Shown: positions 33,698-52,473 of the stretch, piece by piece
Position numbering within the stretch: the stretch's first letter is position 1
Layout: every line of letters starts with the position of its first letter
Assembly (NCBI GenBank): GCA_024330215.1
Contig: JANDLU010000006.1
Location: forward strand, 1-64,000
Source: Candidatus Gaiellasilicea maunaloa
GTDB lineage: Bacteria; Actinomycetota; Thermoleophilia; Gaiellales; Gaiellaceae
Direction: 5' to 3'
Length of the DNA: 64,000 bases
Notes under the pieces: model-generated
The model's input: only the letters and a program-made list of their open reading frames with translations
The model's database searches: none
What the model was told of the DNA's origin: nothing
Position numbers and translations under genes: made by a program

Positions 33698-33769
33698 GCC
33701 CTCGTAGCTCAGTGGATAGAGCAGCGGTTTCCTAAACCGCGTGCACAAGTTCGATTCTTGTCGGGGGCA
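33698..33769 (+). tRNA. tRNA-Arg (anticodon CCT)
   Basis: A 72-nt cloverleaf: acceptor GCCCTCG pairs with CGGGGGC (one G-U), anticodon stem GCGGT/ACCGC with loop TTCCTAA, giving anticodon CCT for AGG, T arm ACAAG-TTCGATT-CTTGT, discriminator A. CCA is not encoded (CAC follows). The 3' 41 nt are the target of an integrative island whose recombinase lies just downstream; the tRNA is left intact by the insertion. Confidence 0.95.
33729..33769 (+). repeat. attL: core repeat inside the tRNA-Arg 3' end
   Basis: The stretch from TTCCTAAACCGCG to the discriminator base (41 nt) recurs at 52434-52473. It covers the 3' side of the anticodon loop, the variable loop, the T arm and the 3' acceptor strand, the usual crossover region of tRNA-integrating tyrosine recombinases. 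Confidence 0.9.
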
Positions 33770-33865
33770 CTTCTCATTCTGGCTCACAACCGGCTTGAAT
33801 ACACGCCTTGCGACTAGCCAGTTGAACTCAGCGCTGTCCGCCTCAATCCGCTGATATCCGCTCTC

Positions 33866-33918: not shown

Positions 33919-35100
33919 ATGGCCCAGCTCGCGGGCATCGAGGTCCGGCACCGGACGACCTGCGCCTCTCACACCGGCGGCAAGTGCAACTGCAAGCCGG
34001 CCTATCAGGCGAGCGTCTGGAGCGCCCGCGAGCAGAAGCGCCTGAGGAAGACCTTCCCGACGCTCGCCGCCGCCCGCGCGTGGCGCGCCGAGGCGCAGAC
34101 GGCGATCCGCCGCGGGACGCTGCGAGCGCCGATCGCAGTGACGGTCCGTGACGCAGGCGTAGAGCTCGTGGAGGGAATGCACTCGGGCCGGGTCCGGACC
34201 CGGTCGGGCGACCGCTACAAGCCGAGCGCGATCCGCAGCTACGAGGCGGCGCTCCGCGACCGGGTCGTTCCCGTCCTCGGCGGCAAGCGGCTCGGCGACG
34301 TGCAGCGGCGTGACGTGCAGAAGCTCGCCGACGACCTCCTCGCCGAGGGACGCGACCCGTCGACGATCCGCAATTCACTGATGCCGCTGCGAGTGATCTA
34401 CCGCCGCGCAGTCGAGGACGGCGACCTCGCCGTCAACCCGTGCACCCATCTACGGCTCCCAGCGGTCAGGGGCCGACGTGAGCGGATCGCAGCGCCCGAG
34501 GAGGCGCAGCGACTGCTGGCCGCTCTACCGGAGCGCGATCGTCCGATCTGGGCGACGGCGCTATACGCCGGCTTGCGGCGCGGCGAGCTGATGGCGCTCC
34601 GCTGGGCAGACGTCGACCTCGCCGCGGGCGTGATCCGTGTTGAGCGCTCCTACGACGACAAGGGCCGAGTCGAGATCGAGCCGAAGAGCCGAGCAGGTCG
34701 TCGCACGGTTCCGATCGTGGGCGCACTCCGCGACATCCTCGTCGACCGTAAGGCCGGCCACGTCGGCGACGGAAACCTCGTCTTCGGTACGAGCGGTGGA
34801 ACGCCGTTCCAGCCATCGAATGTCTGGCGCCGAGCCCGAACGGCCTGGAAGCGTGCGGAGCTCGAGCCGATCGGCCTCCACGAGGCGCGTCACACGTTCG
34901 CGTCGGTCCTGATCGCCGCCGGCGTCAACGCGAAGGCGATCACGACCTACATGGGCCACGCCTCGATCCAGACGACGTACGACCTCTACGGCAAGCTCAT
35001 GCCCGGCTCGGAGTCCGAAGCGACCGCGCTCGTCGACGCCTACCTCGCGCGAGCAGACACCGCGAATAGGCTCGACCAACTCGGCTCATCGGAAAGCTGA
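33919..35100 (+). CDS. Tyrosine recombinase (phage-type integrase)
   Basis: A 393-residue site-specific recombinase. Residues 1-60 hold a cysteine-rich arm-binding region (CASHTGGKCNCKPAYQASVW), followed by a SAM-like core-binding domain (about 75-180) and the catalytic domain. Catalytic residues: Arg in TALYAGLRRGEL, Lys in the following beta turn, His/Arg in LHEARHTFASVL, His in YMGHASIQTT and the nucleophile Tyr in YDLYGKLM. It lies 150 nt after the tRNA-Arg and is expected to integrate and excise the island. ATG 33919; three decamer repeats upstream may both bind the protein and regulate it. Confidence 0.93.
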   Translation: MAQLAGIEVRHRTTCASHTGGKCNCKPAYQASVWSAREQKRLRKTFPTLAAARAWRAEAQTAIRRGTLRAPIAVTVRDAGVELVEGMHSGRVRTRSGDRYKPSAIRSYEAALRDRVVPVLGGKRLGDVQRRDVQKLADDLLAEGRDPSTIRNSLMPLRVIYRRAVEDGDLAVNPCTHLRLPAVRGRRERIAAPEEAQRLLAALPERDRPIWATALYAGLRRGELMALRWADVDLAAGVIRVERSYDDKGRVEIEPKSRAGRRTVPIVGALRDILVDRKAGHVGDGNLVFGTSGGTPFQPSNVWRRARTAWKRAELEPIGLHEARHTFASVLIAAGVNAKAITTYMGHASIQTTYDLYGKLMPGSESEATALVDAYLARADTANRLDQLGSSES

Positions 35101-37055: not shown

Positions 37056-37346
37056 ATGACTAGCGGCATGCTCATCCGCGAGGCCCGCCTCCTCGCCGGC
37101 ATCTCCCAAGGTGATCTCGGCGACCGTGTCGGTCGCGACCGCGCCCAGATCGCGCGCTGGGAGCGCGACGCCGTCCAGCCGAGCTTCGAGACGCTGCGCG
37201 AGCTGCTTCGTGCCTGCGGCTACGACCTCACCCTGCAGCTCGCACGCCACGAGCCGGACGAGCACGCGAACGAGCAGATCCGGAAACGGCTGCGCCGGAC
37301 CCCCCAGGAACGGACCCGCTCGATGCTGCGCACGCTCGACCGCTGA
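37056..37346 (+). CDS. XRE-family HTH protein, antitoxin of a nucleotidyltransferase pair
   Basis: A 96-residue XRE protein: LIREARLLAGISQGDLGDRVGRDRAQIARWERDAVQPSFETLRELLRACGYDLTLQLARHE. The TLRELLRACGYDL ending is typical of HTH proteins encoded directly before nucleotidyltransferase-like toxins (AbiE/MNT type). It overlaps that gene by one base. A palindrome abuts its start codon. The C-terminal 30 basic residues (RKRLRRTPQERTRSMLRTL) may contact the partner. Confidence 0.82.
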   Translation: MTSGMLIREARLLAGISQGDLGDRVGRDRAQIARWERDAVQPSFETLRELLRACGYDLTLQLARHEPDEHANEQIRKRLRRTPQERTRSMLRTLDR

Positions 37347-37855
37347 TGGCGGCCGACACGCCGGAACGCTTCGATCCGCTCGGTCTGCTCGCCGCGATCC
37401 AGAGACGGCACGCGAGCTTCATCTTCATCGGCGCCCTCGCCCGCGTAACCCGCGGAAGCGACGAGCTAACCAACGGCGTGGACATTACGCCGTGGATGCG
37501 ACCCACCACTCTCGCCAACCTCGAGCTCGCCCTCGCAGACGTCAACGCACGGCGCGCGGACGGCCGCCCGCTCGCGCTCGACAACGAAGAGCCCGTGATC
37601 GAGCTTCAGACTGACTTCGGCGAGCTCAAGATCGTTCCGCAGCCGGCGGGCACACGCGGCTACGAAGACCTCCGACGAGCCGCCACCTACGAACACCTCG
37701 GGAGAGGCGTACGCCCGCACATCGCTTCAGTCGGCGACCTCATCCGCATGGCCGGCGCGCTCGGTCGCGACCATGACCGCGACCTCGTCATCGTGAACCA
37801 GCTCCGGAAGATCGCCGAGCTCGAGCGCGAGCTCGGCATCGGACTCGAACTCTGA
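37346..37855 (+). CDS. Nucleotidyltransferase-like protein (AbiEii/MNT-type toxin candidate)
   Basis: A 169-residue protein with a degraded nucleotidyltransferase core: FIFIGALARVTRGSDELTNGVDITPWM parallels the family GG-A-x-HG-R-x-T-x-D-x-D pattern, but the second glycine and one aspartate are replaced (GALA, VDITP). The later EPVIELQTDFGELKIVP strand carries the third acidic position. Such proteins pair with XRE antitoxins in AbiE-like and MNT systems and may nucleotidylate tRNA or protein; here catalytic competence is doubtful. It is coupled to the HTH gene by a one-base overlap and lies 48 nt before the helicase. Confidence 0.7.
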   Translation: MAADTPERFDPLGLLAAIQRRHASFIFIGALARVTRGSDELTNGVDITPWMRPTTLANLELALADVNARRADGRPLALDNEEPVIELQTDFGELKIVPQPAGTRGYEDLRRAATYEHLGRGVRPHIASVGDLIRMAGALGRDHDRDLVIVNQLRKIAELERELGIGLEL

Positions 37856-37903: not shown

Positions 37904-40900
37904 GTGACGTCGACCGGAAACCGGAGCCAGCTCGAGGATCTGACACCCGGAGCGGTTGTCGTCGGTCTGCGCCCAGACGGACCCGTGACGGTTGTGGCAG
38001 CCGTCTGGAATGGCTCGTCTTGCGTCACGCTCACGTACAGGACCGCCGGAGGCGAGGTGGCCGAGCAGCTTGTCTTTCGAGACGACGAGGCGAGCTTCGC
38101 GATCGAAGCTGCAGCCCAGCCGTTCAGCTTCGATGGAGATCCTGACCGCTTCCGCCTCGTCTCCGAGGCGCGGCGTATCCGCCTGGCGTATCTCTTCGAC
38201 CCCAGGCTCGCGGTTCACCTTTCCCTCCTCGAGCCGTTGCCGCATCAGATCCAGGCGGTCTACGGCGAGATGCTGCCGCGCCAGCCGCTGCGCTTTCTCC
38301 TAGCCGACGACCCCGGAGCGGGCAAGACGATCATGGCCGGCCTCTACATCAAGGAGCTAATGCTCCGCGGCGATCTCCGCCGGTGCCTCGTCGTCGCTCC
38401 AGGCGGCCTCGTGACCCAGTGGCAGGACGAGCTCGCGGACAAGCTCGGCCTCTCTTTCCAGATCCTCACGCGCGATCTGATCGAAGCGTCGCGCACCGTG
38501 GACGCGTTCAGCGAACACGATCTCGTGATTGCGCGCCTCGACCACCTCTCGCGAAACGAGGAGCTCGTCGAGCAGCTCAGCCACACCGAGTGGGATCTCG
38601 TTGTGGTCGACGAGGCGCACAGGATGAGCGCGCACTTCTACGGCAACGAACTGAAGGAGACGAAGCGGTATCAGCTCGGACGAGTGCTCGGTCAGGTGGC
38701 GAGGCACTTCCTCCTGATGACGGCCACCCCACATGCAGGCAAGGAAGAGGACTACCAGCTCTTTCTCGCGTTGCTCGACGCCGATCGCTTCGAGGGCCGG
38801 CTCCGCAACGGCGCCGGGAGCGTCGATGCCTCCGACCTGATGCGACGCATGATCAAGGAGCGGTTGCTCCGTTTCGACGGCCGACCGCTCTTCCCCGAGC
38901 GGCGGGCGTACACGCTCCCGTACCCGCTCTCGGAGCTCGAGCGAGAGCTCTACGACGACGTCACGACCTATGTCACAGAGGAGATGAATCGAGCCGACGC
39001 GCTCTCGAAACAGGGCGACGGGAGACGCGGCAACCGCGTCGGCTTCGCGGTCACCGTGCTCCAACGCCGTCTCGCCTCGTCGCCGGAGGCGATCTACAAG
39101 TCGCTGACCAGGAGACGGCAAAGGCTCGAGGACCGGGTCGCAGAAGAGCGCGAGGGCGCAGTTCGCGACGTGGGCGTGGAGATCGACTTCGACGAGCTCG
39201 AGGATCTCGACGACGCGGAGGTCGAGCGCCTCGAGGACGAGGTCGTCGACGAGGCGAGCTCGGCGCGAACGATCGCCGAGCTCCAGGCCGAGATCGCCAC
39301 CCTTCGGCGCCTCGAGGCGCTAGCCGCGCGAGTCCATTCCTCCGGAAGCGACCGCAAGTGGCAGGAGCTCGCCGGACTCCTCTCCGACTCACCGGAGCTA
39401 TTCGAGCCCTCCGGTGCCCGGCGCAAGCTCATCATCTTCACCGAGCACCGCGACACGCTCAACTACCTCGTCGAGCGCCTGCGGACATTTCTCGCACGCG
39501 AAGACGCGGTCATCTCGATCCATGGCGGCACGCCGAGGGAGGAGCGACGGCGACTCCAGGAGCTCTTCATGCACGACCGGGACACGACGATCCTCGTCGC
39601 CACCGACGCCGCAGGCGAGGGCATCAACCTCCAGCACGCGCACCTGCTCGTGAACTACGACCTGCCATGGAATCCGAACCGGATCGAGCAGCGCTTCGGC
39701 CGCGTCCACCGGATCGGTCAGGAGCAGGTTTGCCACATGTGGAACCTCGTCGCTGCGGACACGCGCGAGGGACTGGTGTACGTCCGCCTGCTCGAGAAGC
39801 TCGAAGAGCAACGCCGGGCGCTCGGCGGACAGGTCTTCAACGTCCTCGGCGACGCGCTACCCGGTGGGCGCTACGCGATCTGCTGATCGAGGCGATCCGA
39901 TATGGGGATCGCGATGACGTGCGGGCGCGCCTGAACGCCGTCGTCGATGACCGCGTGGGCGACGGCATCGTCGAGCTGATCGAGCGGGAAGCCCTCGCCG
40001 CGGACGTGCTCGGCCCCGCCGACATCGAGCGCATTCGTCGCGACATGCTCGAAGCGGAGGCGCGGCGGCTTCAGCCCCACTACGTCCGCTCGTGGTTCGC
40101 TGCCGCATTCGAGCTCACCGGGGGGCGAATGCTCGAGCGCGAAACAGGGCGCTTCGAGATCGTGCGCGTGCCCGGCCATGTTCGCGAGCGAGGCCGAATC
40201 TTGCCGGGCCGCGTTCCTGTGCTCTCCCGCTATGAGCGCGCAACCTTCGACAAGGGCCGCGCTCGTGTCGAGGGAAAACCGCCTGCCGAGCTGATCGCCC
40301 CTGGCCACCCGTTGCTCGAGGCCGTACTCGACTTGACGCTCGAGCGGGACGGCGGCGTGCTCCGCCAGGGCGCGTTGCTCGTCGACGAGGAGCCGGCCGC
40401 GGAGCCGCGCATCCTCCTGTATCTCGAGCACGCAATCACGGACGCACGGGCGACCCCTGCCGGTAATCACGTAGTCTCGCGCAGGTTCGAGTTCATGGAG
40501 GTGCTTGCCGACGGCACGGCGCGCCCAGCCGGGCCCGCCCCGTATCTTGACCTCCGCCCGCCGCTCGACACCGAGCGCGGCGCGGCCGCTGACCTGCTTG
40601 CCGGCTGGCCGCTCGCCCGGGCTGACGTCGAGCGGGTTGGTCTCGAGCATGCCGTCGGCGTTGCTGTGCCGGAGCATCTTGCCGAGGTGCGAGCCAAGGT
40701 CGTTGCCCGGGTGGCGAAGGTGCGTGCGGCGGTACACGAACGGCTCTCCAAGGAGATCGAGTACTGGGACCACCGTGCGAACGTCCTGAGCGAGCAGGCT
40801 GCTGCGGGGAAGCAGCCGCGCATGAATCCCGATCGCGCCCGCGCCCGTGCGAACGATCTTGCGGCCCGCCTCGAAGCACGAATGGGTGAACTCGATCGTG

Positions 40901-41376
40901 AGCAGCAACTCCAGGCGCTACCGCCCCTCGTCGTCGGCGCTGCTCTCGTCCTGCCGGTTGCGAGCGTCGCGAGCTCGGTCGACGGAGTCGGCCCGCCCCT
41001 GCACGCGCGCAACACGAAGGAGGTCGAGCTGCGGGCGGTCGACGCCGTGGTCGCAGCCGAGGAGGCACTCGGCCGCGAGGTCGAGGTGATGCCGCCGAAC
41101 AATCCTGGATTCGACCTGCGCTCGACGGCTGAGGACGGCCGCGTATGGTTCCTCGAGGTCAAGGGCCGCCTCTCCGGCGCGGCCACCTTCACGGTCACCC
41201 GAAACGAGATCCTGCACGCCTTGAACATCCCCGACGCCTACCTGCTCGCCTTGGTCGAGGTCAGCCCGGACGGCGCCGCGTCCGACTCGCTGCGCTACTT
41301 GCGCCGGCCATTCGGCGACGCTGTCAGCCTGCCGTTCGCGACCACGTCCGCCAACCTCGACTGGGATGAGTACTAG
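37904..41376 (+). pseudogene. SNF2-type helicase with C-terminal DUF3883, one frameshift
   Basis: A large DNA helicase/translocase of about 1,157 codons. Helicase core: [16 protein letters not shown] (Walker A, near residue 137), [10 protein letters not shown] (box II, near 233), MTATPHAGK (motif III), and in the second lobe [14 protein letters not shown] and [15 protein letters not shown]. The C-terminal region from 39875 carries on in another frame and ends in a DUF3883 nuclease-like motif (NPGFDLRSTAEDGRVWFLEVKGR). The first frame stops at 39886 after [13 protein letters not shown], while frame -1 continues with [13 protein letters not shown], so one base is missing near 39866-39875. This helicase type accompanies DNA methylases in DISARM-like defence. 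Confidence 0.8.
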
Positions 41377-41396: not shown

Positions 41397-44066
41397 GTGA
41401 CGAAGCTGATCGAGGTCGCGCTGCCGATCGAGGCGATCAGCGCCGCCTCGCGCCGTGAGAAGGACAAGAAGGTCGGGACGATCCGGAACGTCCACAAGTG
41501 GTTCGCGCCCATGCCCGGCCCGGCCTGGCGTGCGCTTCTGTTCGCCTCTCTCGTCGACGATCCTGGGGACGACGACCGCCGCCAGGAACTGCTCGACCTG
41601 ATCGTCAGGCTTGTGCCTCCAGACGGTGGGCCGCCGCCGGACGATGCGCTCGCCAAGGCGCGCGAGTTGATCGTCGACGCGATGGACGGCGATCTGCCGA
41701 CGGTGTTCGACCCGTTCTGCGGCGGTGGCTCGACGCTCATTGAGGCGCAGCGGCTTGGGCTACCAACGGTGGGGAGTGACTTGAACCCAGTGCCAGCGCT
41801 GATCACGCGCGTACTCACGGAACTCGTCCCCAAAGTAGCCGGACGTGAACCTTTGATTGGCGACCCGGCCCAGCTCGGGAAGATCGCAGGCGGACCGCTC
41901 GACGGTTTTCTCGCCGATCTTCAGCATTACGGTAAGCGTGTCCGCGAGCGCGCCTGGAACGAAATCGGACACTTGTACCCGGAGTCACCCAGCGGGAGGG
42001 TCACCGCCTGGCTGTGGGCGCGAACCGTGACCTGCCCCAACCCGGCCTGTCGCGCTACTGCTCCGCTCGTGAGTTCATTCTGGCTCTCGAGACGGCGCGG
42101 AGCCGCAATGTGGACTGATCCGGTCGTGCAAGCGAATCGAAAGGTGTTCGCTTTGAGGTACGAAGCGGAACGCCCGCCGGAACTCTTACCGGCACCGTGG
42201 CCCGCAACGGAGCTCGCTGCTTAATGTGCAATGGGACGATTCCCTTGAGTCACGTCCGGTCCGAGGGTCGCGCGAACCGCCTCGGTATACAGCTGATGGC
42301 CGTCGCCGAAGTTTCCGATGGCGAACGCTCATACAGAACGGCAACCTCCGAAGACGCCACCAAAGCCAATATCAAACGCCCTGATGACGCGCCAGATCTT
42401 CCTATTCCAGATCAAGCCCTTGGCTTTCGCGTGCAGCTCTATGGCATGTCGGAGTACGCGGATCTCTTCACGAATCGACAGATACTCGCATTGTCATCAT
42501 TTGCTGATGCGGTCGCATCGGTGCCTAGGCTGGTTCTATCCGACGGAGGCGACCGTGAGTACGCAGGTGTGATTGCGTCGGTGCTCGGACTAGGCGTGGG
42601 AAGCTCGCACAATCGAATTCAACTCAAGCACGCTGGTACATCGATTCGAGAAACGGCACTGCTCAGGCTCTGCCCGCGTTTGGGCGTCATGTGCTCTCCA
42701 TGATCTGGGACTTCGCCGAAGCCAATCCGTTCGGCGGCTCAGTGGGCGACTGGAGCGGGCAGCTCGAGTCCATCAGTCGGGGACTCCGTTCACTGCCCGT
42801 CGGAAGCACGCCGGGACAAGCAGTTCGTGAGGACGCTCGAAAGGCCTTCGGCCTTGTTCCTCAAGGGGGACTCGTAGCGACCGACCCTCCGTATTTTGCG
42901 CAGATCGGATATGCCGACCTCTCCGAGTACTTCTACATCTGGCTCAGACGGGCGCTCCGCGATGTGCACACAGATCTCTTTGCGACGATGTCCGTTCCGC
43001 GTGATCCGGAGCTGATTGCAGATCCTGCTCGGCATGGCGGAGACGCTGAAGTCGCACGTTCGTTGTTTGTCGATGGATACACCGAGACGTTCAGAGGTCT
43101 CGCGACAGCCTCTCGCCAAGAGCTCCCGATGCTAGTTATCTACGCACACCGTCAAGAAGAAAGTGACGACGGCGGAATCACGGCGACCGCTTGGGATGCC
43201 ATGCTAAGCGCCATTCTGGACGCCGATCTCAGGATCGTAGGAACCTGGCCGATTCATGCAACGCACAGCAGCAGGCAGAGAGGCCTCGGCTCGAACGCGC
43301 TCGCGTCGTACGTCGTCCTCGTCTGCCGGCCCCAGTTGGCGGAGGCGAAGGTCGGCGATCTCCAGTCGTTTCTATCCACACTGCGGGCCGAGCTCCCGAG
43401 AGCAATCGCCACGGTCAAGCAGGCTGCAATCTCCGCTATCGACCTCGGCCAGGCAGCGATCGGCCCCGGCATGGCGATTTTCTCGCGGTTCGTCTACGTC
43501 GTCGATCCGTCGACCGGGAAGAGGATGACCGTTCACCGCGCGCTCGAGCTGATCAATCAGGTACGCGCCGAGGCAATCGACGACTTCGCCGGTGCGCTTT
43601 CACCAGAGACACGATGGGCGATGAATTGGTTCCGCGATAACGGCTTCGATGAGGCCGATTACGGTCAGGCGGAAAAGCTCTTCACCCAGATCAACACGTC
43701 ACTCGAGCAGCTCAAGGCGGCTGGTATCGCCGGATCAACCGCGGCAAGGTGCGGCTACTCAGTCGCGATGAGCTGCCGGCATCATGGGACCCCGAGGTTG
43801 ACGGTCGCCGGCCCGAATGGGAAACGCTCCTCCACCTCGTCAAGCGGCACGAGGAGGGCGGCGAGGAGGCGGCCGGCGCGCTGCTCAGACGCGTCGACGA
43901 CGATGCACAGGCGGTCAACGACCTTGCGTACTGGCTTGTCGACAAGTGCCAGTTCACGCAGGGGCCGGAGGTGCTGGCATTCGACGACCTGATTACGTCG
44001 TGGCCGAGGATCACGGAGATCGCCGCGCGCGAGGAGCAGGGCGAAGCGACATCGCTACCAGTCTGA
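41397..44066 (+). pseudogene. DUF1156-family DNA adenine methylase, three frameshifts
   Basis: An N6-adenine methylase of about 890 codons once the breaks are joined. The DUF1156 opening IEVALPIEAISAASRREK ... RNVHKWFAPMPGPAWRALLFASL is followed by the AdoMet site FDPFCGGGSTLIEAQRLGL (41707-41763), a zinc-ribbon pair (TCPNPAC and, after a break, ARCLMCNG), and the catalytic TDPPYFAQIGYADLSEYFYIWLRRAL (42880-42957). Reading must change frame near 42180-42195, at about 42601 (an apparent missing A) and at about 43738-43748, each time as if one base were lost. GTG 41397 follows the helicase stop by 20 nt with GGGGAG before it. The 42200-42700 part is richer in A/T than its surroundings. Confidence 0.8.
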
Positions 44067-44105: not shown

Positions 44106-45410
44106 ATGGCCATGGAACCGTCCGTCATCGAGGAGGTCCGGCTCGGCAGCTTCAAGAGCTTCCGCGACGCTGTCCTGCCGCTGGACGCCTTTACGTTGCT
44201 CGTCGGCAGGAACGGCAGCGGCAAGTCGAACGCGCTCGACGCCCTCTGGGTGCTCGCGCGACTGGCTAGCGGCGAGGACATCCGCGACGCACTAGACGGC
44301 GGACGCGACGGCCCGGCAGTCCGCGGAGGCGTCGTCGGGTCGGCACCGTTCGGCGAGCCCGCCTTCTCGCTCGGCTGCTCCGTGCGTACCGGCGAGGAGG
44401 TGGTTCGGCTCGACGTCACCGTGCAGGTCGAGCCCGTCGTCCAAGTACTCCAAGAGAAACTCGCGATCGGCGCTGACGTGGTGCTCGAGACCGATCCTGC
44501 GAGCATGGACTCGGCGGACATCGTCGCGGCCTGGAGCAATCAGAAGCCGGGCCACACCCAGAAGAAGGAGAACTTCCGGGCCGGCCGCCTGCTCACGACG
44601 CAGGTCCTCTCCCGCATTCCGGCCACGGGGCCCGGACAGCAGATCCATGTCGCCGCGGCCCAGGTGCTTGCGGCCTTGCAGGCAGTCTTCGTACTCGATC
44701 CCGTGCCACACCTCATGCGCCAGTACGTTCCGAGGCGAGACATGCTCCTTCGCCGCAACGCTGACAACCTCTCCGCAGCCGTCGCGTCACTGATCGAAGC
44801 CGGACCGACGAAGGAGCTCCTTCGGACGGCGCTCATGAACCTGAACGAGCAGCGGATCGACGACATCACGATGTCCAGTTCGGAACTCGATGACGTGATG
44901 TTGACCTTGAGCGAGCGGCAAGACAGGAAGAAGCATCCGGTGCCGGCGCGTCTCATGAGCGACGGCTCACTCCGCTTCCTCGCCATCCTCGTCGCGCTGC
45001 TCCAGGCGCCGACGGAGACGGCCCCAGAAGAGGTCGCATCCGAGGACGCCCTAGGCCAAACGACGCTCGTGATCGAAGAGCTCGAGAACGGACTGCACGC
45101 CTCGCAAGCAGGAACGCTGATCGGACTGATTCGCGACCAGGTGCAGACTCGCCGAGTCCGCGCGCTCGCAACGGCGCACAGCCCAGCCCTGCTCGACGCT
45201 CTGACCGGCAGCGAGCACCGCACTGTGATCGTCTGCGAGCGCGACTCGAACGGACGTAGCACGCTCAGTCGGCTCGTCGATTTGCCCGGCTATGTGAACG
45301 TCGTCGCGGGAGGTGGCCTCGGCAGAGCCGCTGTCGCGGATGAGCTTCGCGCGACGCCAGAGGCGAAGCCCGCGCGAGAACTCCTCGACGAGATCCTCGG
45401 CCCGCGCTGA
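44106..45410 (+). CDS. AAA ATPase (AAA_21/OLD-like)
   Basis: A 434-residue ABC-type AAA ATPase. N-terminal strand and Walker A: IEEVRLGSFKSFRDAVLPLDAFTLLVGRNGSGKSNALDALW (Walker A near residue 36). Walker B is LVIEELENGLHASQ near 321 with the double glutamate of catalytic ABC ATPases, followed by ATAHSPALLDAL (switch histidine). It is in the group with OLD, RloC-like and Gabija-like sensor ATPases but lacks their fused nuclease; the next gene supplies a PIN-type nuclease. ATG 44106 or 44112. It lies 39 nt after the methylase. Intact, unlike the two genes before it. Confidence 0.87.
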   Translation: MAMEPSVIEEVRLGSFKSFRDAVLPLDAFTLLVGRNGSGKSNALDALWVLARLASGEDIRDALDGGRDGPAVRGGVVGSAPFGEPAFSLGCSVRTGEEVVRLDVTVQVEPVVQVLQEKLAIGADVVLETDPASMDSADIVAAWSNQKPGHTQKKENFRAGRLLTTQVLSRIPATGPGQQIHVAAAQVLAALQAVFVLDPVPHLMRQYVPRRDMLLRRNADNLSAAVASLIEAGPTKELLRTALMNLNEQRIDDITMSSSELDDVMLTLSERQDRKKHPVPARLMSDGSLRFLAILVALLQAPTETAPEEVASEDALGQTTLVIEELENGLHASQAGTLIGLIRDQVQTRRVRALATAHSPALLDALTGSEHRTVIVCERDSNGRSTLSRLVDLPGYVNVVAGGGLGRAAVADELRATPEAKPARELLDEILGPR

Positions 45411-45411
45411 C

Positions 45412-45873
45412 GTGGCCGTGACGTTCATCGATACGTCAATCCTCTGCGAACTGCTTCGCGTGCCGGGGAAGTGCCAGCAGCACGAGGCCGTCCGCGACGA
45501 GTTCGAGCTCCGGATCGGGAACGGAGATCGCTTCGTGATTCCGATCACCGCTGTTATCGAGACGGGCAACCACATCGCGCAGGCGGGCGGTGATCGGCGC
45601 GGAGCCGCCGACCGCTTCTGCAAGATGCTGGCTTCCGCCGCTTCGGGGGAGGCGCCGTTCGTCATCCACCAGGAGAGTTGGGACGAGCGCTTCCTCGAGG
45701 AGCTGTGTTCGGGCAACGGAACCGGTCAGCAGTTCATCGATCTGGCCGGCAACGGCCAGATGGGGGCGGGCGACGTCGCCATCCTCGTCGAGCGCGACCG
45801 GTTCAGGACGCGATCCGCGTACGGCACGGTCGGCATCTGGACGCTCGAGAACGTGTTGGGAGCCTACGCGTGA
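45412..45873 (+). CDS. PIN-domain-like ribonuclease candidate
   Basis: About 153 residues. The PIN fold is suggested by the opening strand VTFIDTSILCELL with the first aspartate, a central acidic position in FVIPITAVIETGNHIAQ, the late GAGDVAILVERDRF with two more aspartates, and the closing IWTLENVLG. GTG 45412 (or 45418) starts one base after the ATPase stop, and the gene overlaps the RNA ligase gene by four bases (GTGA), so all three are translationally coupled. A sensor ATPase feeding a PIN nuclease whose cuts could be repaired by the adjacent ligase is the simplest reading. Confidence 0.7.
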   Translation: MAVTFIDTSILCELLRVPGKCQQHEAVRDEFELRIGNGDRFVIPITAVIETGNHIAQAGGDRRGAADRFCKMLASAASGEAPFVIHQESWDERFLEELCSGNGTGQQFIDLAGNGQMGAGDVAILVERDRFRTRSAYGTVGIWTLENVLGAYA

Positions 45874-46544
45874 CGGTTCCGCCGCCGTATCCCCGGATCC
45901 CACACCTCGTCGCCGGCCGTGGCACGAGCGACGATCGTGTCGTCCCAACCAAGGACGTCAATGCGTTCTTAACGCGACCTGCTCTCGTCGAGGAGAAGCT
46001 CGACGGAGCGAACGTCGTCGTCTGGCTCGATGATGGACGAGTCGAGTGCGCGCTTCGCTCCGGCGTCGGCGCTCAGGATCGCGGTCGTCAACTCGGTCCG
46101 CTGAGGGCATGGCTCGCCGAGCGAGCGGATCGATTTCGCGAGCTGCTCGATGGACGTGCGCTCTATGCCGAATGGCTGCTCGTCGCGCACGGAGTGCGCT
46201 ACGACGCGCTGCCCGCGTATCTGATCGGACTCGATCTCTGGTCCTCGGCCTCGGGCTTTGCGGCGCCGGATGCCCGGAACGACCTACTCCATCAAGCAGG
46301 CCTAGTCGCGCCGCCTGAGCTCCACCGCGGCACGACCCACGGAATCGACTCGATCGAGAAGCTGCTCGGCACCTCGCGTGCGGGTTCCGAGCCGATGGAG
46401 GGAATCATCGTCCGTCCGCTGGACGGACGCGAGCCGCGGGTTGCCAAGCTCCTTCGCGCCGGCTTCTCGCCGGCGACAGACGCCGCCTGGCTTCGAGGGC
46501 GCCCGCGCAACTTTCTTCGCGAACGTGAGCTCTCATGGCACTGA
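45870..46544 (+). CDS. RNA ligase (Rnl2-like ATP-dependent ligase domain)
   Basis: A 224-residue nucleotidyltransferase-superfamily ligase. Start VTVPPPYPRIPHLVAGRGTSDDRVV matches bacterial RNA ligase openings. Motif I is EEKLDGANVVVW (lysine about residue 43, the adenylation site), motif III-like YAEWLLVAHGVRYDALPAYLIGLDLW, motif IV MEGIIVRP near 177 and motif V VAKLLRAGF. No C-terminal OB or zinc domain, so it is a minimal enzyme of the T4 Rnl2 branch. GTG 45870 overlaps the PIN stop, and its end overlaps the DUF499 start by ten bases. RNA repair coupled to RNA cleavage is a plausible job. Confidence 0.8.
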   Translation: MTVPPPYPRIPHLVAGRGTSDDRVVPTKDVNAFLTRPALVEEKLDGANVVVWLDDGRVECALRSGVGAQDRGRQLGPLRAWLAERADRFRELLDGRALYAEWLLVAHGVRYDALPAYLIGLDLWSSASGFAAPDARNDLLHQAGLVAPPELHRGTTHGIDSIEKLLGTSRAGSEPMEGIIVRPLDGREPRVAKLLRAGFSPATDAAWLRGRPRNFLRERELSWH

Positions 46545-49500
46545 GCAATCGCGAGCGCGTCGGCCGGTCGTTCGAGCTGCTCGCTGCCGGTCTCGGCCCG
46601 TACATCGATCGGAAGATGCGCGCGTCGAGTCGGTCGGGCTCCGCCTGGCAGCGTGACTTCCCGCGCGAGTCGTCGCTCGACGACCCTTCGTTCCAGCTTC
46701 GGGTGATGGCCGATCGTTGGGACGAGGCGTTCCGGGACGAGCTGACGCCCACCGATCGAAACCTCGTGTTCGAGTTGCGTGACGTTCGCAACCGCTGGGC
46801 GCACAATCAGGCCTTCGCCGCCGACGATCCCTACCGCGCGCTCGACTCGATCGAGCGGCTCCTCTTGGCGGCCGGAGCTGCCGAGACCGCAGAGGTCGGG
46901 CGGTCGAAGGACGAGTTGATGAGGCTTCGCTACGAGGCCGAGGCTCGCCGCGCAACCCCAGCGGCGGAGATTCTCGTCGCCGACGCGGCCGGACTTACCC
47001 CGTGGCGAGACGTCGTGCAACCGCATGAGGACGTTGCCGCCGGCCGGTTCGCACTGGCCGAGTTCGCCGCGGATCTCTACCAAGTGCGCCAGGGCGAGGG
47101 ACGTGCGGAGTACGTGGACGCAGCCGAGTTCTTCCGCAGGACGTACCTGACCGACGGCCTACGACGCCTGCTGACCGAGGCGGTCGAGCGCGTCACAGGG
47201 CCTGGTGCTGCGCCCGTCGTTGACCTGCAGACCAACTTCGGCGGCGGCAAAACGCATTCCATGATCGCCCTCTACCACCTTTTCTCAGGGCTCGGGCTGA
47301 CCCTCTTCCCACAGGACGTTCAGGACATGCTGGCCGCGGCGGGCGTGTCCGAGCTTCCGAAGGTCCGGCGCGTCGTGCTCGTCGGTAACCAGCTCCGCCC
47401 CGGACAGCCAGAGATCAAGCCGGACGGGACGAGCGTGCAGACGATGTGGGGCGAGCTCGCCTGGCAGCTCGGCGGGCTCGATGGTTTCTCCATCGTCGCG
47501 GAAGCCGACCGGACGCGCACCAACCCAGGAGCAGCGCTGCGCGACCTCTTCCGGCGCTACGCCCCGTGCGTCATTCTCATCGACGAGTGGGTGGCCTACG
47601 CCCGACAGCTCTACACCGACGACGCGTTGGCGGCGGGCACGTTCGACACGCACTTCTCGTTCGCCCAGGCGCTGACCGAGGCGGCGCGAACCGTCGAAGG
47701 CGCGCTGCTCGTCGTGTCCATTCCCGCGTCGGAGTCGGCAGGAGCAGACATCGGCTCGGACATCGAGGTCGGTGGGGCGGGCGGTCGTGAGGCGCTTCGA
47801 CGGTTGCGCGCGATCGTGGGCCGGATGGAGTCGTCATGGCGGCCGGCGAGTGCGGACGAGAGCTTCGAGATCGTCCGTCGGCGCCTGTTCCGGCCCGTCG
47901 AGGCCTCCTCCCTCGCGGCCCGAGACGCCACCTGCCTGGCCTTCGGCGAGTACTACCGTGCAAACGCTGCCGACTTCCCCGTCGAGTGCCGGGAGCCGGC
48001 CTACGTCGAACGGATGAAGGCGGCGTACCCGATTCACCCAGAGCTCTTCGCCCGGCTCTACGAGGACTGGTCGTCGCTCGAACGCTTCCAGCGAACGCGC
48101 GGCGTGCTCCGGCTGATGGCGCAGGTCATCCACGCACTCTGGGCGCACGGCGACCAATCGCCCCTGATCTTGCCGGGCAGCGTGCCCCTCGACGACGCGG
48201 CCGTGTTGAGCGAGCTCGACCGAAACCTCGACGACAACTGGAAGCCGATCGTCGACACCGACGTCGACGGCTCCAGCTCGCTGCCCCGCGCTCTCGACGC
48301 CGAGTTCCGGAACCTCGGGCGCTACGGCGCGGCCCGGCGGGTCGCTCGCGCGGTATTCCTCGGCTCGGCTCCTCGCGCGCGCTCGCCCCATCGCGGGATC
48401 GAAGTCGAGCGCGTTCGCCTGGGTTGTGCGCTACCAGGTCAGGCGGTCGCTATCTACGGCGACGCCCTGAACCGGCTCTCCGACCGCGCAACCTTCCTCT
48501 ACGTCGAAAATGCGCGCTACTGGTACGGCACGCAGCCGGGGGTAGCCCGACTCGCTCGCGATCGAGCCGACCGCTATCTGACGAGCGATCGCGACTCGGT
48601 CGCTGCGGCAATCACGGAGCGACTTCAACTCGTTCGGCGCGAACCTGGAGCATTCGCGGGGGTCCACGTCGCGCCACGAGCCTCCTCGGACGTCGAAGAC
48701 TCCGACGAAGCGCGACTCGTGCTCCTCGGCCCCGAAGTCCCCCACGTCGCACGGTCGGACGACTCACAGGCGCTGCGCTCGGCACGAGATCTGCTCGAGC
48801 AACGCGGGAACGCAGCACGGACGCACCGGAACATGCTCGTCTTCCTCGCCGCCGACCAGCGGCGTCTCGAGGATCTCGAACTCGCAGTTGCGGAGCAGCT
48901 CGCGTGGCAGTCGATCGACGAGGAGGCCACCGAACTCGATCTCACCGCACAACAAGCGGCGCAGGCACGCAGCAAGCGAGCCGAGGTCGAGAGAGCCGTC
49001 TCTCTGCGGCTCGGCGATACGTACCACTGGTTGCTCGTCCCGGGCCAGCCTGATCCGAACGGCCCGATCGAGTGGGACGCAATCAAGGTGGAGGGCCAGG
49101 CGGGGCTCGCTGTTCGCGCGGGAGACAAGCTGGTCAACGAAGGACGGCTCTACACATCCTTTGTCCCGGTGCTCCTGCGGATGCGCCTCGACGGCGTCCT
49201 GGATTCACTCTGGGAGGACGGTCATGTCGCCGTGAACGACCTGTGGAGCACGTTCTCGCGCTACCTCTATCTGCCGCGCCTCCGCGATCTGCGCGTGTTG
49301 CTCGAGACCGTCCGAGCAGGTGCGAACTCGACGACCTGGGAGACGGAGGGGTTCGGTATCGCCGATGCTCGCGAAGCGGAACAGGATCGCTACCTCGGTC
49401 TGACAGTGAGCGGCATCCACGCAGCCGTCTCGGGAACGACGCTGGTCGTTCGGCCGCCCGAGGCTTCCAGCCAGGCTGCCGAGGACGACCGCGCGGCGAT

Positions 49501-49798
49501 GACCGACGACGGCGACGAAGCCGCGGAGGTCGAGCCGGACCGCGTCGCACCCGATGACGGGAAGCTGAGGCGCTTCTACGGCTCCGTGCGAGTAGATCCC
49601 GGCAGGCTGAACCGCGACTTCGGCCGGGTCGCGCAGGAGGTCATCTCGCACCTCAGCGGCCTTGTCGACGCACGCGTCGAGATCACAATCGAGGTACGCG
49701 CTGAACACGATGAGGGCTTCCCGGACGACGTCGTTCGGACCGTCAGCGAGAACGCCCGCACCTTGAAGTTCGAACCGCAGGGATTCGAGCCCGAGTAG
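46535..49798 (+). CDS. DUF499 ATPase with N-terminal Swt1-type HEPN domain
   Basis: A 1,087-residue protein. Residues 1-110 form a HEPN-like helical domain of the Swt1 family (ERVGRSFELLAAGLGPYIDRKM ... FELRDVRNRWAHNQAF, with the R-N-x-x-A-H motif of HEPN RNases). The ATPase part has VVDLQTNFGGGKTHSMIALYHLF (Walker A, near 235) and CVILIDEWVAYARQL (Walker B, near 352) and runs to about 700 (DUF499), followed by helical and acidic regions to EPQGFEPE. DUF499 proteins have been linked with DUF1156 methylases in defence islands. It overlaps the RNA ligase by ten bases and is intact. Confidence 0.85.
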   Translation: MALSNRERVGRSFELLAAGLGPYIDRKMRASSRSGSAWQRDFPRESSLDDPSFQLRVMADRWDEAFRDELTPTDRNLVFELRDVRNRWAHNQAFAADDPYRALDSIERLLLAAGAAETAEVGRSKDELMRLRYEAEARRATPAAEILVADAAGLTPWRDVVQPHEDVAAGRFALAEFAADLYQVRQGEGRAEYVDAAEFFRRTYLTDGLRRLLTEAVERVTGPGAAPVVDLQTNFGGGKTHSMIALYHLFSGLGLTLFPQDVQDMLAAAGVSELPKVRRVVLVGNQLRPGQPEIKPDGTSVQTMWGELAWQLGGLDGFSIVAEADRTRTNPGAALRDLFRRYAPCVILIDEWVAYARQLYTDDALAAGTFDTHFSFAQALTEAARTVEGALLVVSIPASESAGADIGSDIEVGGAGGREALRRLRAIVGRMESSWRPASADESFEIVRRRLFRPVEASSLAARDATCLAFGEYYRANAADFPVECREPAYVERMKAAYPIHPELFARLYEDWSSLERFQRTRGVLRLMAQVIHALWAHGDQSPLILPGSVPLDDAAVLSELDRNLDDNWKPIVDTDVDGSSSLPRALDAEFRNLGRYGAARRVARAVFLGSAPRARSPHRGIEVERVRLGCALPGQAVAIYGDALNRLSDRATFLYVENARYWYGTQPGVARLARDRADRYLTSDRDSVAAAITERLQLVRREPGAFAGVHVAPRASSDVEDSDEARLVLLGPEVPHVARSDDSQALRSARDLLEQRGNAARTHRNMLVFLAADQRRLEDLELAVAEQLAWQSIDEEATELDLTAQQAAQARSKRAEVERAVSLRLGDTYHWLLVPGQPDPNGPIEWDAIKVEGQAGLAVRAGDKLVNEGRLYTSFVPVLLRMRLDGVLDSLWEDGHVAVNDLWSTFSRYLYLPRLRDLRVLLETVRAGANSTTWETEGFGIADAREAEQDRYLGLTVSGIHAAVSGTTLVVRPPEASSQAAEDDRAAMTDDGDEAAEVEPDRVAPDDGKLRRFYGSVRVDPGRLNRDFGRVAQEVISHLSGLVDARVEITIEVRAEHDEGFPDDVVRTVSENARTLKFEPQGFEPE

Positions 49799-50388: not shown

Positions 50389-51075
50389 GTGGCTCGAACG
50401 AAGTCGCCGCCGATCCGAATCATCGTCGACGTACACGAGCGCCAGAGCGGGATCGCCGACACGCTCGCCGAGCTCGGAGCTGAGATTGAGATCGCGTCGC
50501 TCGCCGCAGGCGATTACGCCGTCGGCGCCGACACGCTCGTCGAGCGCAAACGCGTCCTGGATCTCCACGGCGCCATCCTCAAGGGACGCCTTTGGCCTCA
50601 GCTCGGCAAGCTCCGCGCCGCCTGCGCCTTCCCCTACCTGCTCGTCGAGGGGACCGACATCGACCGAGGCCCTCTCCACCACAATGCCGTTCGGGGTGCC
50701 TGCCTTGCCGTGATCGACCAGGGCATCGCGCTCCTCCGAAGCGGCTACCAGCGCGACTCGGCCCTGTGGATTCACCGCCTCGCCGTCCGCTGTCAGGAGA
50801 TCGAACCAGCAGCCGACCGACCGGCCTACGCACAGCGACCGCGGCCGAAGCCGCGTGAGGAGACGGCCGAGGCGCTGCTCTCAGCTGTTCCAGGCGTTTC
50901 GACTTCGTGTGCGCGCGCACTGCTCGCGCGGTTCGGCAGCGTCGCGGCCGTCGTCGCCGCCGAACCAGAGAAATGGCTCGAAGTGCCCGGCATCGGACCC
51001 GAGCGTGCCCGCGCGCTCGAGGAGACGTTCCAACTCCGCGCGACACCGCTCAGCGCTGTCCACGACCGCCCGTAG
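50389..51075 (+). CDS. ERCC4/XPF-type nuclease with helix-hairpin-helix
   Basis: A 228-residue structure-specific nuclease. The ERCC4 domain has RIIVDVHERQSGI, GDYAVGAD and the catalytic VERKRVLDLHGAI (Glu-Arg-Lys-x3-Asp, residues 52-58). After a proline-rich linker a helix-hairpin-helix pair follows (SAVPGVSTSCARALLARFGS and VPGIGPERARALEETF). Bacterial stand-alone XPF-like nucleases are rare relative to archaeal Hef/Mus81; here the gene closes the island operon, 16 nt after the HTH gene. It may cut branched DNA generated by the helicase. GTG 50389. Motifs are intact. Confidence 0.85.
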   Translation: MARTKSPPIRIIVDVHERQSGIADTLAELGAEIEIASLAAGDYAVGADTLVERKRVLDLHGAILKGRLWPQLGKLRAACAFPYLLVEGTDIDRGPLHHNAVRGACLAVIDQGIALLRSGYQRDSALWIHRLAVRCQEIEPAADRPAYAQRPRPKPREETAEALLSAVPGVSTSCARALLARFGSVAAVVAAEPEKWLEVPGIGPERARALEETFQLRATPLSAVHDRP

Positions 51076-52433: not shown

Positions 52434-52473
52434 TTCCTAAACCGCGTGCACAAGTTGATTCTTGTCGGGGGCA
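52434..52473 (+). repeat. attR: displaced copy of the tRNA-Arg 3' end
   Basis: Matches 33729-33769 base for base except for one missing C in the T loop (TTGATT for TTCGATT). It marks the far end of the island; chromosomal genes resume at 52550. The copy is not a functional tRNA by itself. Confidence 0.9.

Follow-up and report, generated by a model that had tools for sequence, protein, structure and literature searches.

Immunity that cuts RNA is usually taken as a form of suicide, with repair being assigned to the side of the phage, as in the case of T4, which employs Pnkp and Rnl1 against PrrC. "Guilt by embedding" is likewise an established idea. Pairs of an OLD-ABC ATPase and a PIN RNase have been reported inside BREX and BR (DUF499) systems, in a text that mentions no ligase (PMC12839542), and the prefix of the PADLOC candidate HEC-03 stands for Hma-embedded candidate (PMC12988326). 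A literature search for papers naming the PADLOC candidate PDC-M07 yielded none. Likewise, no literature linking PDC-M07 or HEC-03 pairs to an RNA ligase was found in a search that fell short of Burroughs and Aravind 2016 (RNA repair) and the Payne 2024 embedding preprint, either of which may mention the ligase. The nearest characterised relative found for the ligase described below, DRB0100 of Deinococcus, forms an AMP-lysine intermediate, yet it ligated none of the DNA and RNA substrates tried in vitro (PMC1997131). Its operon also encodes a PARG (DRB0099) and the end-healing enzyme HD-Pnk (DRB0098) (PMC11833690). ATPase-PIN pairs and their embedding are therefore already known, and what the present analysis adds is the RNA ligase as a recurrent third gene.

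Layout of the cassette and state of its operon

In the window, i.e., the whole stretch of 64,000 nucleotides that was analysed, three tightly packed genes for an ATPase, a PIN nuclease and an RNA-ligase-like protein fill the junction between hmaB and hmaC (Table 1). The initial annotation had described a gap of one base followed by overlaps of four and ten bases, and the reading-frame coordinates reproduce this spacing exactly. The stop codon of the ATPase gene (45408-45410) is separated by a single base from the GTG start codon of the PIN gene at 45412, the stop codon of the latter (45871-45873) overlaps the GTG start codon of the ligase gene at 45870 in the four bases GTGA, and the ligase gene, ending with a stop codon at 46542-46544, shares ten bases with the HmaC/DUF499 gene, which starts with ATG at 46535. 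The combination of a DUF499 region with a Swt1-like HEPN domain assigned to this downstream gene was borne out as well, as it corresponds to HmaC of PADLOC. Within the cassette, PDC-M07A directly adjoins PDC-M07B, which is the gene composition of the PADLOC candidate PDC-M07; the pair does not match HEC-03 (HEC-03B ATPase and HEC-03A PIN-like protein). To our knowledge, an ERCC4/HHH nuclease at the end of an Hma operon is unusual beside DUF499 systems.

Table 1. Features of the cassette, the surrounding Hma operon and the island in the window.
Feature	Position	Strand	Evidence
tRNA-Arg(CCT), left attachment site of the island	33698..33770	+	ARAGORN
Tyrosine-integrase ORF, 393 aa, adjoining the tRNA	33919..35100	+	ORF and sequence motifs by eye
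HTH_3 regulator heading the operon	37056..37346	+	Pfam HTH_3 2.6e-12
Nucleotidyltransferase-like protein, overlapping the HTH gene	37346..37855	+	sequence only; no match in Pfam or PADLOC
hmaA, NOV_C-bearing SNF2 helicase, one frameshift near 39865	37904..41376	+	PADLOC HmaA; DNA view
hmaB, DUF1156 methylase, three frameshifts (about 42130, 42650, 43730)	41397..44066	+	HmaB profiles; DNA view
Cassette ATPase, AAA_21/OLD-like ABC type	44106..45410	+	Pfam AAA_21 2.6e-26; PADLOC PDC-M07A 1.5e-152
Cassette PIN nuclease (PDC-M07B), catalytic acids present	45412..45873	+	PADLOC 2.2e-48; AlphaFold2; conserved acids
RNA-ligase-like nucleotidyltransferase, catalytic domain only, 224 aa	45870..46544	+	Pfam RNA_ligase 4.8e-19
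hmaC, intact; DUF499 ATPase with Swt1-like HEPN at the N terminus	46535..49798	+	PADLOC HmaC 1.4e-299; Pfam DUF499, HEPN_Swt1
HTH protein with recombinase-like segment	49866..50372	+	Pfam Recombinase 3.4e-7
ERCC4/HHH nuclease (XPF/Hef type), downstream of hmaC	50389..51075	+	Pfam ERCC4 8.5e-19; NCBIfam Hef 2.2e-41, under cut-off
Right attachment site, copy of the tRNA 3' half over 40 bases (23 identical bases, then a one-base gap)	52434..52473	+	sequence comparison

The profiles of HmaA, HmaB and HmaC were all matched in the expected order within one operon. The reading frames of the first two genes are broken, a point absent from the initial annotation, with two ORFs of hmaA being collinear with positions 3-658 and 666-1162 of the PADLOC HmaA profile, and four pieces of hmaB covering positions 136-324, 335-452, 514-864 and 861-958 of the HmaB profiles. 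The earlier statement that the cassette is embedded among DNA methylase and helicase components thus holds insofar as homologues of HmaA and HmaB flank it, but both are frameshifted and, for this reason, an intact DNA-defence operon is not to be assumed. The whole operon, including the cassette, resides on an integrative island of 18.7 kb bounded by tRNA-Arg(CCT) and the 40-base copy of its 3' half, with a GC content of 0.663 inside and 0.710 outside the island. A search for the empty island site in relatives found no synteny, and no RNA families were found near the operon.

The four frameshifts in hmaA and hmaB and the IS3 genes at the right end of the island might suggest that the locus is in decay and no longer functional. 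This appears quite improbable, as the ATPase, PIN, ligase, hmaC and ERCC4 genes are uninterrupted and their active sites conserved, and the breaks affect only hmaA and hmaB, where they reflect either true decay of the genes responsible for restriction or errors in the assembly of the metagenome bin.

Predicted folds and relatives of the nuclease and the ligase

The middle gene of the cassette encodes a protein of 153 aa, which is recognised by the PADLOC profile PDC-M07B and has no match in Pfam. Its AlphaFold2 model, built with six related sequences, reached a pLDDT of 92, and the leading matches in the PDB were PIN toxins of the VapC/FitB type (probability about 1.0, TM about 0.6, best E 0.002). 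In the alignment of class 1 PIN proteins, to which it belongs (see below), D5, E48 and D119 do not vary, and either D or E occupies the fourth acidic position. Both the fold and the acidic residues are therefore in line with the initial designation of this short ORF as PIN-like. PIN relatives were found in 3 of 397 genomes within the phylum, and none were found in the viral contigs searched.

For the ligase, PADLOC holds no model. The AlphaFold2 model (pLDDT 91; built with 50 relatives) found the Naegleria Rnl5-type nick-sealing RNA ligase, T4 Rnl2, Rnl1, TbREL1 and the archaeal Rnl3 as best PDB matches, with DNA ligases ranking below them, and the profile matches in the PDB were RNA ligases of the Rnl3 and Rnl5 types. 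Motif I (KLDG, within EEKLDG) contains the lysine K43, and K43, D45, G46, E101, E177, G178 and K193, which belong to motifs I, III, IV and V, are invariant across the 50 relatives. The protein consists of a stand-alone nucleotidyltransferase domain and carries no C-terminal domain. Structure prediction hence supports the RNA-ligase fold proposed for the KLDG enzyme; the original label "Rnl2-type" turned out to be too narrow, because Rnl5, Rnl3 and Rnl2 are all among the matches and the C-terminal domain is absent. An assignment as plain Rnl2 was accordingly rejected, as profile and fold point to Rnl5, Rnl3 and Rnl2 in general.

An action of both proteins on DNA, with the PIN protein cleaving flaps or introducing nicks and the ligase sealing DNA in the course of restriction or repair, would be consistent with the embedding of the cassette in DNA modification systems and with the ERCC4 nuclease encoded in the same operon. 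Nevertheless, the nearest structural matches are RNases of the VapC type and RNA ligases, the profile of the ligase points in the same direction, and a DNA-binding domain is absent, all of which makes this explanation very improbable.

In the ligase tree, DRB0100 takes the position of the outgroup. A few members of the family stand alone (L057, L077, L031 and L036). Two of these (L057:9281-10627 and L077:9313-10675) are arranged head-to-head with a macro-domain-like (ADP-ribose) gene, a neighbourhood that echoes the ligase-PARG operon of Deinococcus. Distant relatives are encoded by Caulobacter jumbo phages, Flavobacterium phages and huge uncultured phages (records H43-H66), where they possibly serve in counter-repair. 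Within the phylum, ligase relatives were found in 5 of 397 genomes, and a search of the same family and order gave five matches in 199 genomes. The window provided the sole strong match among the latter, which argues for a horizontal gain of the cassette. RtcB is absent from the host genome.

Recurrence of the cassette and exchange of its ATPase-PIN pair

Scanning 84,980 species genomes for the ligase family yielded at least 497 relatives, of which the best 80 were retained. An ATPase gene followed by a PIN-like gene with a DT[SN] motif lies directly upstream of the ligase gene in 66 of these 80, a figure that covers the best-scoring relatives and is not representative of the whole family. Most junctions between the PIN and ligase genes overlap or fall within 20 bases, and an overlap of one or four bases is possible at 38 out of 65. 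Taken together, the shared upstream neighbours and the junctions that allow an overlap argue against a pairing by chance. The ligase relatives span, among others, Actinomycetota, Pseudomonadota, Verrucomicrobiota, Acidobacteriota, Planctomycetota and Myxococcota, and were also found in Nitrospirota, Bacillota, Synergistota and Leptospiraceae.

A search of other genomes for the triplet of PIN, ligase and DUF499 genes had been suggested. As a recurrent arrangement this triplet was rejected, as it is seen in the window only and a HmaC homologue is located beside none of the 80 related ligases. The natural unit is formed by ATPase, PIN and ligase, in near-constant order, and the Hma operon is one of several hosts.

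Two kinds of ATPase-PIN pairs accompany the same ligase family. Class 1 (PDC-M07) is found in the window and at the loci L015, L016, L018, L019/L048 and L025, and class 2, corresponding to HEC-03 of PADLOC with a DUF3696-type ATPase, at most of the other ligase loci. A comparison of the PIN profiles of both classes detected no homology beyond the first motif, and they are consequently counted as separate families. The class-2 protein is probably PIN-like, as suggested by its match to HEC-03A, near-invariant acids of its own and weak matches to Pfam PIN_3.

The cassette is portable. It occurs in free-standing form on plasmids of Aeromonas, Azotobacter, Rhodococcus and Tistrella, and it is inserted in BREX, type I RM, DISARM-like and Hma operons. 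In BREX it adjoins PglX and BrxHI, with BrxC, PglZ and BrxA encoded in the locus (L019, L048, L022, L067), and a further copy lies with PglX at a contig end (L040). In type I RM systems it is positioned between HsdS and HsdR (L088) or beside HsdR (L083, L055), and DISARM/type IIG-like loci carry it in four cases (L026, L043, L078, L086). E. coli genomes gave no DNA match to the cassette of Lelliottia. Pairs of the M07 type that contain no ligase were found as well, namely in the hsdS-hsdR slot of Photobacterium pAQU1 and alone on cyanobacterial and Acinetobacter plasmids. On a plasmid of Acinetobacter soli (L104:6538-7296), a HEC-03-like pair is followed by a gene for an HNH nuclease in the position of the ligase. 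With regard to the Hma operon, 16 Actinobacterial loci (from L134-L150) contain both genes of the junction; hmaB abuts hmaC in eight of them, and the other eight carry extra sequence, which by eye includes AbrB-VapC, MNT-HEPN and MqsA-like pairs. The hmaB-hmaC junction is therefore a cargo slot.

Two nearly matching BREX loci (L019 and L022) document an exchange of the pair. Their BrxHI proteins are 88% and their ligases 83% identical; the PIN proteins cannot be aligned, and the ATPases share 21% identity. At the DNA level, homology ends at the end of pglX (8158 in L019) and restarts at the start of the ligase gene (9979). The exchange of the ATPase-PIN pair thus follows the gene borders exactly, and the neighbouring ligase was kept. 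The ligase tree agrees with this change of partner, as it places the Verrucomicrobial class-1 ligases and the class-2 ligase of L022 in one group with 100% support, apart from the Actinobacterial class-1 group. Across 57 class-2 loci, the distance correlation (rho) was 0.82 for ATPase and PIN, 0.41 for ligase and ATPase, and 0.33 for ligase and PIN. The exchange and these correlations indicate that ATPase and PIN form a matched pair and that the ligase outlasts a change of its partners. Such a retention is to be expected if the ligase acts on a shared product, i.e., RNA breaks, and judging from the sequences it seems to do so rather than to serve as a cognate protein antidote.

The same co-variation, weak as it is between the ligase and both ATPase and PIN, would also suit a ligase that is a general RNA-repair passenger, mending the damage done by other toxins or by phage nucleases and found near the pairs since defence cassettes collect such genes. 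The stand-alone family members fit this explanation, as does the sister operon of DRB0100 with its PARG and HD-Pnk repair enzymes (PMC11833690). On the other hand, a passenger would hardly be expected directly behind the PIN gene in so many of the best loci and at such close junctions, nor as a companion of two unrelated ATPase-PIN families in cassettes that contain no end-healing enzymes. We consider this explanation unlikely.

Many ATPase-PIN pairs occur without a ligase, which shows that the latter is dispensable for the role of the pair. This dispensability might also be read as a sign that the ligase domain takes part in the attack and, in the manner of other nucleotidyltransferases, marks or blocks the PIN-cut ends by AMP transfer or RNA capping, so that they are not rejoined by phage repair. 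The presence of the catalytic domain alone and the behaviour of DRB0100, which was adenylated yet did not ligate (PMC1997131), are compatible with this view. Still, the RNA-ligase motifs are kept across 50 relatives and the best structural matches are all strand-joining ligases, and such a role is therefore rather improbable.

A possible cut-and-seal mechanism and its relation to known systems

All in all, we slightly favour the reading of the cassette as a portable ATPase-PIN-ligase guard module of a "cut-and-seal" type, in which the co-encoded ligase would reseal the cuts made by the PIN nuclease. The OLD/ABC-type ATPase would hold or gate the PIN nuclease, probably in a manner similar to AriA and AriB in PARIS or to the ATPase part of PrrC/RloC. 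When a phage blocks the restriction-type system of the host, or upon another signal, the PIN nuclease might be released and cut host RNA, most likely tRNA or rRNA if it behaves like its VapC relatives, and the cassette may in this way protect against phages. By resealing the cuts, the minimal ligase domain could limit the damage caused by leakage and allow recovery. Cleavage by PIN nucleases generally yields 5'-phosphate and 3'-hydroxyl ends. Such ends are the substrate of ATP-dependent RNA ligases, with neither a kinase nor a phosphatase being needed, and the absence of an end-healing partner beside the PIN-linked ligases is what would be expected if these ends require no healing.

A damage-and-repair module is the best reading of the locus because the coupled RNA-cleaving and RNA-ligase folds recur widely in defence operons. 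To that extent the initial annotation, which had suggested RNA damage and repair, was upheld, and the cleavage of host tRNA with self-rescue that it gave as an example is a possible form of it; DUF499 as a recurrent partner and an intact surrounding operon found no support. The distant ligase relatives in phages also count in favour of a cut-and-seal function. By contrast, the ligase-free pairs, the stand-alone ligases and the broken hmaA and hmaB genes count against it, and the failed ligation by DRB0100 in vitro is the main caution.

In a more general form, and tentatively, with slightly less than even confidence, immune modules may carry their own RNA-sealing enzyme: translation would be shut down upon a phage alarm, the cut RNAs would later be rejoined, and the ligase would be a product-directed antidote that can be shared among unrelated nuclease pairs. 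If true, a cutter and a sealer would be united in one widespread bacterial cassette, making an immune shutdown reversible, and immunity that harms its own RNA might carry a built-in repair enzyme. It would also provide a substrate for an orphan ligase family, the only assayed relative of which ligated nothing, and account for the occurrence of a single ligase with two unrelated nuclease pairs.

Among the known systems, PDC-M07 and HEC-03 share the ATPase and PIN genes, to which the cassette adds the RNA ligase as a recurrent third gene. The locus resembles Hma/Type-1 BR (DUF499) in that HmaA, HmaB and HmaC flank the cassette in order, and differs from it by the insertion between hmaB and hmaC and by the frameshifts in hmaA and hmaB. 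With Deinococcus DRB0100 it shares the minimal ligase family, whereas the partners there are PARG and HD-Pnk, i.e., repair and end-healing enzymes, instead of an ATPase-PIN pair. VapBC has the PIN fold and its catalytic acids in common with the cassette, which contains a large ATPase and a ligase in place of a VapB-type antitoxin. PARIS likewise consists of an OLD/ABC ATPase gene followed by a separate gene for a nuclease that is likely a gated effector; however, the neighbour of the ATPase in the window is a PIN protein without any Toprim match in Pfam or PADLOC rather than an AriB Toprim (DUF4435), and an RNA ligase is added. Finally, PrrC/RloC is an RNase gated by an ATPase and encoded between hsdS and hsdR, a location shared by the cassette of L088 and the pair without a ligase in pAQU1. 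Unlike this single protein, in which an ABC ATPase is fused to a HEPN anticodon nuclease, the cassette encodes its ATPase and a PIN nuclease by separate genes, and its ligase is on the side of the bacterium instead of that of the phage.
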